DNA of 64,000 nucleotides from Pseudomonadota bacterium (GTDB lineage: Bacteria; Pseudomonadota; Gammaproteobacteria; Burkholderiales; Rhodocyclaceae). Location of the stretch: the NCBI GenBank assembly GCA_018240785.1, contig JAFEFC010000031.1, positions 211,502-275,501 of the forward strand, in the 5' to 3' direction. The position numbers and the translations under genes are program-made. The notes under the pieces were generated by a model, which was not told the DNA's origin, made no database searches, and saw nothing but the letters and a program-made list of their open reading frames with translations. The stretch's first letter is position 1; each line of letters starts with the position of its first letter. This document shows, piece after piece, positions 51,845-54,829 of the stretch.

Positions 51845-52780
51845 ATGAGGACCTTGTCATTGTCGCTGAAAGACTCCCGCGCGCCGGCGTTGCGGCGCTA
51901 CCCGCTCGCCATCATCGGCGCCGGCGCGCTCGGCCTGAGCTTTGCCGCACGGCTGGCAGCCAGCATGCAGGTCGCGGTCGTCGCGCGCAGCGCCGCCCGT
52001 GCCGGACAATTGCGTGCCGGCGTGCTGGTCGGCGATGCGCGGTTCCAGGCCGATGCGCACGCCCCCGACGCCCTGCCCGAGGCGGATTGGGTGATCGTGC
52101 TGGTGAAGGCGGCGGACACCGCGGACGCCGGTCGCCTTGCCGCCGCCATGCGCCCGCTGGGCGTGCTGTCGCTGCAGAACGGGCTCACCGGCGAGGTGCT
52201 GCGTGACGCGGTACATGCCTCCTGGCCCGAAGAGGACATCCCGCCGCCCCAGGTGGAGCAGGGCATCACCACCGAAGGCGCCTTCCGCGACGGCGACCGC
52301 GTCACGCCCTCCGGCGCGGGCGACACGCTGCTGCCGCCGGGCTTCGAGGCGGTGGCCGAGCTTCTTTCGCGCGCGGGGTTCCGCGCCCGCGTCGAGCCTG
52401 ACATCGCCGCCGCGCGCCTGGCCAAGCTGCTGGTGAATCTGGCGCTCAACCCGCTCGCGGCCTTGTTCCGGGTGCCCAATGGGGCGCTGTGCGAGCCGCC
52501 TTACCGGGTCCACCTCGACGCCCTGGTGCGCGAGGCCTGGCCGGTACTGCGCGCCGAGGGGCTGGCGCTCGACGAAGCCGCCGCCCACGCCCGCGTCATT
52601 GCGGTGGCCCGGGCCACCGGCGCCAACCGCGCGAGCATGCTGCAGGACGTGCTCGCCGGACGCCGCACCGAGATCGACGCCATCACCGGCGTCTTCCTCG
52701 ACATGGCGGCCCGCCACGGCGCCGAGGTTCCCACGCACCATGCCGTATTCACGCTGGTGAAGCAGATCGAGGCCGGGTGA
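51845..52780 (+). CDS. Ketopantoate reductase-family protein (PanE/ApbA)
   Basis: 311 aa. NADPH-binding Rossmann motif LAIIGAGALGLSFAARLA, then VIVLVKAADTADAG, and the C-terminal domain KLLVNLALNPLAALFRVPNG with catalytic Lys and Asn. Ends with SMLQDVLAGRRTEIDAITG, the classic PanE C-terminal block. The pantothenate role is probable but several paralogues exist in such genomes. No ribosome site is visible before the ATG. Confidence 0.88.
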   Translation: MRTLSLSLKDSRAPALRRYPLAIIGAGALGLSFAARLAASMQVAVVARSAARAGQLRAGVLVGDARFQADAHAPDALPEADWVIVLVKAADTADAGRLAAAMRPLGVLSLQNGLTGEVLRDAVHASWPEEDIPPPQVEQGITTEGAFRDGDRVTPSGAGDTLLPPGFEAVAELLSRAGFRARVEPDIAAARLAKLLVNLALNPLAALFRVPNGALCEPPYRVHLDALVREAWPVLRAEGLALDEAAAHARVIAVARATGANRASMLQDVLAGRRTEIDAITGVFLDMAARHGAEVPTHHAVFTLVKQIEAG

Positions 52781-52858: not shown

Positions 52859-54829
52859 ATGAAACCCCACGCCTTCGTCGCCATGCCCTTCGGCACCAAG
52901 CCCGGCCCCGACGGGCAGCCGATCGACTTCAACCGGGTGTACGACGACTACATCGCGCCGGCGCTGGCGGACGCCGGCTTCGACGTCATCCGCGCCGACC
53001 GCGAACAGCGCGCGGGCGACATCCGCACCGACATGTTCCAGGAACTGCTGATGTCCGACCTGGTGGTCGCCGACCTGACGCTGGACAACCCCAACGTGTG
53101 GTACGAGCTCGGCGTTCGCCACGCGCTGCGCAAGCGCGGCGTGATCCTGGTGCAGGGGCCGCGGCCGACCCAGCCCTTCGACCTGTACACCGATCGCAAG
53201 CTGCACTACGCGCTGAAGGACGGCGCGCCCGACGACGCGACGCTGGAGGACGACCGCAAGGCGCTCGCCGCAATGGCGCGGGCGACGCTGGCCGAATGGG
53301 TGGACGAGCGCGTCAGCCCCGTCTACAGCCTGCTGCCCAACCTGCGCGAGCCCGACTGGAGGACCCTGCTGCTGACGCAGGCCAACGCCTTCAACGCGGC
53401 GTATCGCGAGTGGGCGAGCCGCACCGAGGTCGCGCGCCAGAAGCTGCGCCCCGGCGACATCCTGGTGCTGGCCGACGAGACGCCGACGCGCGCGCTGCGC
53501 ATCGAGGCCAAGATCACTGCCGGCGAGGCGCTGCTCAAGCTGCGCCATTACGACTTCGCTCTCGAGCAGTTCGAGGATGCGCTCGAGCTCGACCCGTCGT
53601 GCAAGCGCGCGCGCGAGAAGAAAGCCGTCTGCCTCGGCCGCCTCGGCCGCTACGAGGAGGCACGCGAATGGGTGCGCCGGCTCACCGAGGACTACCCGGT
53701 CGACCCGGAAGTGTGGGCCCTGCTCGGCCGCGTCGAGAAGGACAACTGGATCGGCCGCTGGCGCCGCGAGGGCGCTTCCAGTGCCGAGCTGCGCGCGGCG
53801 GCGAGCGGCGAGGATGCCGCGCTGGCCGAGGCGATCGAGCCTTATCACAAGGCCTTCATCGCCGACCCCGCGCATCATTACTCGGGCATCAACGCGCTGA
53901 CGCTCGCCCTGCTGCGCCGCCATCTCGGCGGCAAGACCCGCGGCACCGTCATCGACAACCTGATCGGCGGCGTGCTGTGGGCGGCGCTGACCGCGCAGGA
54001 ACGCGACCGCAAGGACTACTGGGCGCGGGCGAGCTATGCCGAGCTATGCCTGCTGGTGAATCCGCTCGACGCGGTGCGCGAGGAATACGGCGCCACCGTC
54101 GCCGCCGCAAACCGCGACTGGTTCGCGCTCGATTCCAGCCGCCAGACACTCGCCCTGCTGCGCGACCTCGAGTTTCGCCCGGCGGAAACGGCCGCCGCGC
54201 TGGACATCGTCGATCGCGAGATCGCGCGCAGCACACCGCCCTTCGAGCCGCGCCAGGTGTTCCTGTTCAGCGGCCACATGATCGACGATCCGCAGCGGCC
54301 GGTGCCGCGCTTCCCTGCCGACAAGGAAGGCATCGCCGCGCACAGGATCGCCGCGGCGCTGGACGCGCTCGGCGCCGGCCCCGGCGACCTCGCCCTGACG
54401 CAGGGCGCCAGCGGCGGCGACACCCTGTTCCTGGAAGCCTGCCAGGCCCGCGGCCTGCGCCTGCACCTGATGCTGCCGCTGGACGAGCCGGAGTTCATCG
54501 ACCGTTCGGTGATGCCCTCCGCCGATGGCCAGAAATGGCGCGACCGCTACTACGCGATCCGCACAGCGCTGAAGGATCCGCCTCGCATCATGCCCGCCGA
54601 GCTCGGGCCGCCGCCGAAGATCGGCCCCGACCGGCGCGCCAGCCCCTTCGAGCGCTGCAACCTGTGGCTGCTCTACACCGCGTTGGCGTGGGGCGTGGAC
54701 AAGGTGCGCTTCATCTGCCTGTGGAACGGCGAAGGCGGCGACGGCCCCGGCGGCACCGCGCACATGCACCGCGAAGTGAAGCGGCGCACCGGGCGGGTGA
54801 CCTGGCTGGATACGCGGACGCTGTGGTAG
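52859..54829 (+). CDS. TIR/nucleoside-deoxyribosyltransferase-like + TPR (TRAFs-binding-like) + SLOG-like fusion protein
   Basis: 656 aa. Residues 1-115 form a TIR/NDT-like alpha-beta domain: HAFVAMPFGTKPG, DAGFDVIRADREQRAGDI, SDLVVADLTLDNPNVWYELG, with the conserved Glu of YELGVRHAL in the catalytic region. Residues about 190-430 are TPR-like helices (HYDFALEQFEDALELDPSCK) as in MAP3K TRAFs-binding-type bacterial proteins. From about residue 463 a second Rossmann domain has VFLFSGHMIDD and LTQGASGGDTLFLEACQARG, a glycine-rich loop and GGD motif as in SLOG/DprA-like nucleotide binders, ending in KVRFICLWNGEGGDG. No signal peptide. Solo gene, 78 bases after the PanE-like gene. Confidence 0.75.
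   Translation: MKPHAFVAMPFGTKPGPDGQPIDFNRVYDDYIAPALADAGFDVIRADREQRAGDIRTDMFQELLMSDLVVADLTLDNPNVWYELGVRHALRKRGVILVQGPRPTQPFDLYTDRKLHYALKDGAPDDATLEDDRKALAAMARATLAEWVDERVSPVYSLLPNLREPDWRTLLLTQANAFNAAYREWASRTEVARQKLRPGDILVLADETPTRALRIEAKITAGEALLKLRHYDFALEQFEDALELDPSCKRAREKKAVCLGRLGRYEEAREWVRRLTEDYPVDPEVWALLGRVEKDNWIGRWRREGASSAELRAAASGEDAALAEAIEPYHKAFIADPAHHYSGINALTLALLRRHLGGKTRGTVIDNLIGGVLWAALTAQERDRKDYWARASYAELCLLVNPLDAVREEYGATVAAANRDWFALDSSRQTLALLRDLEFRPAETAAALDIVDREIARSTPPFEPRQVFLFSGHMIDDPQRPVPRFPADKEGIAAHRIAAALDALGAGPGDLALTQGASGGDTLFLEACQARGLRLHLMLPLDEPEFIDRSVMPSADGQKWRDRYYAIRTALKDPPRIMPAELGPPPKIGPDRRASPFERCNLWLLYTALAWGVDKVRFICLWNGEGGDGPGGTAHMHREVKRRTGRVTWLDTRTLW

Follow-up and report, generated by a model that had tools for sequence, protein, structure and literature searches.

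A DrHyd/TIR-like, TPR-S and SLOG protein of Thauera as the probable hub of an effector-swapping conflict system

The 64,000-nucleotide stretch of contig JAFEFC010000031.1 analysed here (the window) derives from a Thauera genome and carries, at 52859–54829 on the forward strand, an open reading frame of 656 codons plus stop, whose product joins a predicted DrHyd/TIR-like domain, a tetratricopeptide repeat (TPR) scaffold of the TPR-S kind and a SLOG domain in a single chain. We favour the reading that this gene is the hub of a nucleotide-signal conflict system with interchangeable effectors, probably anti-phage and suicide-type, which is under-studied and belongs to the predicted TPR-S kind. It is probably a hub rather than a stand-alone defence gene, because many of its relatives have genes for cell-damaging enzymes beside them.

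Domain architecture and conservation

The reading frame is a real and well-conserved Thauera gene. Its ATG at 52859 agrees with the start in relatives, which open with MKPHAFVAMPFG or close variants, and dN/dS values of about 0.09, 0.14 and 0.23 against three of them (L079, L080 and L083) indicate purifying selection. The closest named relative, from Thauera sp. 2A1, shares 98% protein identity and that of T. propionica 78%, and the three-domain chain is kept in relatives, most of them metagenome bins, whose labels span several phyla. A 54-row alignment sets the window protein against 53 relatives (52–86% identity to it) out of the 80 fetched; conservation extends over the whole length, and E83, G519, G520, D521 and E526 are invariant in all 54 rows. 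A preliminary description of this DNA had picked out FVAMPFG, YELG and GASGGDTLFLEA, which are indeed present where it placed them (residues 6–12, 82–85 and 516–527 of the translation); the invariance of these five residues across the alignment argues that the motif set did not arise by chance.

Structure prediction indicates that the C-terminal domain has a SLOG fold that best matches YpsA. The AlphaFold model of residues 459–656 is confident (predicted local distance difference test (pLDDT) score 94.7, predicted template modelling score 0.92), and its top Foldseek match is Bacillus subtilis YpsA (2nx2; E = 4e-6, probability 1.00, TM-scores 0.61/0.67), followed at ranks 2 and 3 by Moco carrier protein; these three are the only matches at E ≤ 0.001. 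ShosA (E = 0.007) and DprA (E = 0.008) stand lower in the list, amid unrelated folds. Pfam YAcAr (PF10686) matches 12 of 62 members of the domain family, with a best E of 7.7e-4; the window's own C-terminal domain has no Pfam match, PF10686 included, and the SLOG alignment found nothing better than E = 0.09 in a PDB sequence search. The fold is thus shared with the YpsA and YspA (YAcAr) proteins, from which the window family differs by additional residues of the C-terminal half that are invariant, namely W, R, N and GGT (G631, G632 and T633 in the full-length alignment), and by being fused to, or standing beside, conflict genes. Foldseek of this domain against viral models led to phage proteins, some of them annotated as SLOG or DprA-like.

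The central part is an all-helical TPR superhelix, modelled with ten-residue pLDDT means of at least 82 from residue 181 onwards. TPR-S (Tetratricopeptide Repeats-Sensor, PF20308) matches at E = 6e-23 and 81.8 bits against a gathering cut-off of 27.6, which places the protein in that family and bears out the TPR helices of the preliminary description. PF13281 (MAP3K_TRAF_bd) also matches, at residues 266–441 with 34 bits against a cut-off of 24.1. This match and a faint one of the N-domain profile to human MAP3K5 (E = 1.4) hint at a possible likeness to the N-terminal half of animal ASK (MAP3K5); the TPR-S profile gave no match to MAP3K5 at E ≤ 10. Unlike ASK, the window chain has no kinase match in Pfam and bears SLOG instead.

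On sequence evidence, the N-terminal 125 residues are TIR/DrHyd-like. The PADLOC TIR effector model matches them with E = 9.8e-8, and a profile of 45 members of this domain family finds the Rcl/DNPH1 deoxynucleotide N-hydrolases with E = 0.002–0.07 and aligns the YELG glutamate, which is catalytic in Rcl/DNPH1. This glutamate, E83, is also invariant in 45 of 45 rows of the N-domain alignment. The domain thus shares the YELG glutamate and the surrounding pattern with Rcl/DNPH1 and nucleoside deoxyribosyltransferases, and differs from them in its fusion to TPR-S and SLOG. Single-sequence Pfam matches at E ≤ 1 are weak, with TIR_2 found by 24 of the 45 members, Nuc_deoxyrib_tr by six and the implausible Tim54 by 12. 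In the full-length AlphaFold model this region alternates strands and helices, with pLDDT blocks of 52–75 at residues 41–110, and a full-length Foldseek search of the PDB returned only TPR proteins among the 50 matches listed. The three-part reading of the preliminary description is therefore upheld, its SLOG part by fold and its TIR/deoxyribosyltransferase part by sequence.

Features of the gene, in window coordinates, with the evidence for each
Feature	Position	Strand	Evidence
Whole gene, DrHyd/TIR-like, TPR/TPR-S and SLOG protein	52859..54829	+	translation, relatives, purifying selection
Putative N-terminal Rossmann-like DrHyd/TIR-like domain, residues 1–125	52859..53233	+	PADLOC TIR, profile matches, model
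Glu83 codon (invariant residue of YELG, predicted to be catalytic)	53105..53107	+	alignments; Rcl alignment
All-helical TPR superhelix, residues 129–457	53243..54229	+	AlphaFold secondary structure; Foldseek
TPR-S region, residues 231–350	53549..53908	+	Pfam PF20308
Predicted C-terminal YpsA-like SLOG domain, residues 464–656	54248..54826	+	AlphaFold, Foldseek, Pfam YAcAr
GASGGDTLFLEA loop of SLOG domain, residues 516–527	54404..54439	+	G519, G520, D521, E526 invariant

Effector genes beside relatives and unfused forms

The gene neighbourhoods were surveyed around the best-scoring 80 of 242 relatives in named genomes, a sample that leans to close kin and includes many metagenome bins of uncertain species assignment. 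Neighbouring genes were called by codon usage, so that some starts and small neighbours are unsure; the partner counts, obtained by tblastn with queries taken out of the same 80 loci, are independent of the gene calls. Two loci cut by contig ends (L097 and L152) and a broken one (L150) are counted among the 80.

In 59 of the 80 loci, one or more of six families of partner genes are represented within 8 kb of the gene: patatin in 31, CHAT in 28, caspase in 23, nSTAND in four, and SLATT and TIR in three each. CHAT or caspase is found in 31 loci, as against 31 with patatin, and both kinds occur together in four. A same-strand partner stands within 1 kb in 50 of the 80 loci and, when the nearest match is taken for each partner family and locus, 91 matches lie on the same strand and one on the opposite strand. 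The patatin gene starts at most 200 bases downstream in 22 loci, and CHAT lies upstream in nine of 28. The preliminary description had stated that no partner gene is adjacent and that this may be a single-gene system. The first statement is right for the window locus and fails for the family; the second is unlikely, given that most of the surveyed relatives have a partner within reach and that unfused versions occur as gene clusters. Similarly, the conflict setting that it proposed is seen in the neighbourhoods of relatives and not at the window locus itself.

The linked genes mostly retain the motifs of their families. GxSxG and DGGGI are intact in all 30 patatin frames on the strand of the hub; the GHG motif is present in 21 of 23 caspase frames and the sought cysteine motif in 17 of 23; and all 12 CHAT frames inspected, of 26, bear the HG motif. 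DUF7379 occurs in all three CHAT proteins examined, with TPR-S in two of them (that of L138 and the Thauera one) and not in that of L090. In PADLOC, the linked patatin is recognised by the 'Effector, Phospholipase' models, with a best E of 9e-42.

The type of partner changes along the family tree. In a quick protein phylogeny (LG+G4, L150 excluded, support below 80 on 20 of 77 inner branches), parsimony over 50 labelled tips, with 27 partnerless, two both-effector and two nSTAND plus TIR rows left out, counts eight switches between patatin and CHAT/caspase, against 12–22 in 200 shuffles of the labels. As there are fewer switches than in the shuffles, the effector linkage is partly inherited and not fixed. 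In the sister pair L122 and L146, the gene that follows encodes a caspase at one locus and a patatin at the other, on contigs that end 1221 and 319 bases downstream. A third partner type is seen in a Nitrosospira locus (L126, 9991–14406), where the gene immediately downstream of the hub encodes a TIR-nSTAND1-WD40 protein of 1471 residues.

Where parts are fused in one species and encoded side by side in another, this is a recognised sign of a common function, and the parts of the window protein also occur as separate neighbouring genes. In L190, SLOG, patatin and a 469-residue DrHyd protein are encoded by three consecutive genes, and a plasmid of Rhizobium leguminosarum (CP050566.1, L160) carries SLOG, a DrHyd gene that the annotation splits into pieces, SLATT, DUF3380, patatin and DrHyd-TPR-S; a few kilobases upstream of this cluster lies a gene for an IS4 transposase. 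Among the 13 Thauera-genus genomes with a stand-alone SLOG match, eight have the gene 103–930 bases upstream of DUF7379-CHAT-TPR-S on the same strand, and in a ninth (G026) the CHAT gene starts 129 bases downstream of SLOG at the contig end. In G022 a caspase gene directly follows the stand-alone SLOG gene (L042), in G028 the nearest CHAT is only 39% identical and 55 kb away, and the contigs of G019 and G001 do not show the arrangement. In L048 the genes for SLOG, caspase and CHAT follow one another. Outside Thauera, eight of 15 stand-alone SLOG loci have a partner family nearby (L190, L192, L193, L194, L197, L198, L199 and L200), that of L197 on the opposite strand and more than 4 kb away. 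Some stand-alone SLOG genes sit amid ordinary-looking genes.

The Thauera genome and the distribution of the family

At the window locus, a panE/ApbA-like ketopantoate reductase gene (51857–52780) ends 78 bp upstream of the hub on the same strand; the two are possibly co-transcribed. The downstream neighbours, both on the opposite strand, are an open reading frame with no Pfam match and a peptidoglycan-binding/chitinase-like gene. Models of Thoeris and of CBASS (cyclic oligonucleotide-based antiphage signalling system) were absent from the PADLOC matches of 25 window genes, such that neither the ThsB TIR plus ThsA pair of Thoeris nor, for this locus, the CD-NTase of CBASS was found.

Elsewhere in the window genome (C21, L174, 6063–12485), a caspase gene is followed by DUF7379-CHAT-TPR-S. 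No SLOG match was found in the 18-kb stretch around this operon, and in a whole-protein search of the genome the window gene alone had this C-terminal SLOG domain. In sister Thauera, a SLOG gene precedes the caspase/CHAT-TPR-S operon; as the window genome's operon lacks this upstream gene, the SLOG of the fusion would serve it in trans. Across 29 Thauera-genus genomes, CHAT of the 57–61% identity class and SLOG occur together in 14, CHAT alone in one, SLOG alone in five and neither in nine (Fisher p = 0.0017, uncorrected for kinship and with the identity class drawn after seeing the list). Weaker CHAT homologues are near-universal in the genus (26 of 29 genomes at E ≤ 1e-10). The full fusion is present in six of the 29, each with a homologue of CHAT at another site, which in four genomes is of the 57–61% type. 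Patatin matches occur in three of the 29 genomes; the one in the window genome, at 39% identity on another contig, is too distant to count as the missing partner.

Two further proteins in the window genome resemble parts of the hub: a second DrHyd-TPR protein (L006, C16, 153215–154531) that is 32% identical to the window protein and has no SLOG domain, and a 349-residue frame (L007, C27, 24262–24519 and upstream) in which an apparent SLOG precedes a DrHyd/TIR-like domain, in reverse order and with no TPR.

The family is patchily distributed. Of the 300 genomes searched in the order, 20 match the SLOG profile, among them the window's own; the protein query is found at E ≤ 1e-20 in 60 of 297 genomes of the family, with about 23 matches nearly full length and the rest covering one part or representing a distant copy. 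A uniform spread through core genomes, which the preliminary description had named as speaking against its reading, is therefore not what we observe. Matches occur in 71 plasmid records, none over 80% of the query, and two short patterns run against IMG/VR retrieved a single relative, a viral contig (L159, IMGVR_UViG_3300045049_000283), a stretch of which is 30% identical to the N-domain. On a 9.9-kb Acinetobacter johnsonii plasmid (NZ_CP140719.1, L164), a DrHyd-TPR gene has in its vicinity three genes annotated as TIR and a pair of the RelE/ParE-HigA type.

Signalling model, alternatives and known systems

TPR-S, DrHyd and SLOG conflict systems were reportedly predicted by Burroughs and Aravind in J Bacteriol in 2020 and NAR in 2015, with TPR-S said in the 2020 work to be a scaffold reading NAD+-derived signals, accompanied by TIR/DrHyd and SLOG partners and suicide-type effectors; the window family appears to resemble these systems in such respects. 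A literature search, largely outside subscription journals, found no paper describing this system. CBASS has patatin effectors (CapV), and caspase-using Thoeris exists. The phospholipase effector type is thus shared between CBASS and the window family's linked patatin, and CBASS differs in that the linked gene here is a predicted DrHyd/TIR-like and SLOG hub; the neighbourhoods of relatives were not searched for CD-NTase. In PMC9503650, TIR, DrHyd and SLOG are classed as one fold group that makes and reads NAD+-derived signals, and the SLOG of ThsA is a reader of variant cyclic ADP-ribose (cADPR); according to that paper and PMC11204291, Thoeris combines TIR-type NAD+ chemistry with a SLOG sensor. 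The window family's domains resemble this combination, yet its TIR-like and SLOG domains share one chain with TPR-S, and the linked effectors are patatin or caspase/CHAT rather than the SIR2-SLOG protein ThsA. In relatives, for which Thoeris was not searched systematically, a SIR2_2-TIR gene stands beside L158 and the gene upstream of L089 gives a ThsB_TIR match.

In the hub model, an invasion cue would lead the DrHyd/TIR-like domain to cleave the N-glycosidic bond of NAD+ or another nucleotide through Glu83, making a signal. The TPR-S scaffold, the YpsA-like SLOG domain or both would bind that signal or a related one, and the hub may then switch on the effector encoded in the linked gene. A patatin phospholipase would attack membranes, and a caspase with DUF7379-CHAT(-TPR-S) would cleave proteins, with cell death as the presumed outcome and phage as the presumed trigger. 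In the window's Thauera, where the hub stands apart from partners, the caspase and CHAT-TPR-S operon elsewhere in the genome is the leading candidate for this role.

Several observations weigh against this model. The N-domain is modelled with only moderate confidence, and its single-sequence family matches are weak and mixed with chance ones. No recognised conflict gene adjoins the window hub. A defence island at this locus was considered and rejected, PADLOC having matched only mad3, mad8, LmuB, DndD and PbeC, each in one or two genes, among 25 genes from 30–64 kb of the window. No recognised partner was found in 21 of the 80 relatives, nor in 14 of the 63 that are flanked on each side by 3 kb or more. 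The linkage argument, drawn from a survey weighted towards close kin, relies on strand, distance and repetition, with no random-gene control, and seven of the 15 stand-alone SLOG loci outside Thauera (L184–L189 and the short L191) have no partner family; four of these loci (L185, L186, L187 and L189) are alike and from one genus. The weakest step is the in-trans link from the hub to the caspase-CHAT operon, which we infer from co-occurrence in one genus; two fusion carriers, G005 and G010, have only a CHAT of 40% identity. To our knowledge, no member of the family has a documented activity, signal or protective effect against phage.

The lack of a partner beside the window gene and in the 14 well-flanked relatives, along with the invariant glutamate of the N-domain, would also suit a single-gene abortive-infection NADase, in which SLOG or TPR senses a phage-made or host nucleotide and frees the N-domain to deplete NAD+, the downstream genes being bystanders. 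We think this unlikely, as it leaves unexplained the same-strand coupling to two unrelated effector types and the unfused clusters, and all six fusion-bearing Thauera have the CHAT homologue described above. The SLOG domain might instead act as a brake that degrades or sequesters the DrHyd/TIR-like signal and keeps caspase, CHAT and patatin off until infection. A C-terminal GGTxHMxxE, which includes the invariant G631, G632 and T633, resembles the motif of LOG enzymes, and stand-alone SLOG genes lie just before CHAT or caspase in several Thauera. Catalysis by SLOG would be conjecture, and the literature ties YpsA-like SLOG domains to cADPR sensing; we judge a brake to be distinctly improbable. 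A housekeeping or stress role, as a regulator of nucleotide metabolism amid ordinary genes in Thauera, would fit the same-strand panE-like neighbour and the 1174-residue gene that the hub adjoins in T. propionica. It would sit poorly with the effector linkage in relatives and with the patchy spread noted above for the order and the Thauera genus, and we regard it as very improbable.

The hub model can be extended, at the level of a tentative and on balance doubtful proposal, to an uncharacterised and widespread immune pathway, in which one chain would both make (DrHyd/TIR-like) and read (TPR-S, SLOG) a signal and drive interchangeable patatin or caspase-CHAT effectors, with a scaffold akin to that of animal ASK and, in Thauera, with an uncoupled hub that would act in trans on the remote caspase-CHAT operon. 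If the hub model is true, the family would offer a compact, clonable hub, with signal making and sensing on one chain and a killing enzyme that can be swapped between lipase and protease. It would allow tests of what TPR-S and YpsA-like SLOG domains bind, and a test of a bacterial immune counterpart to the animal ASK stress pathway.
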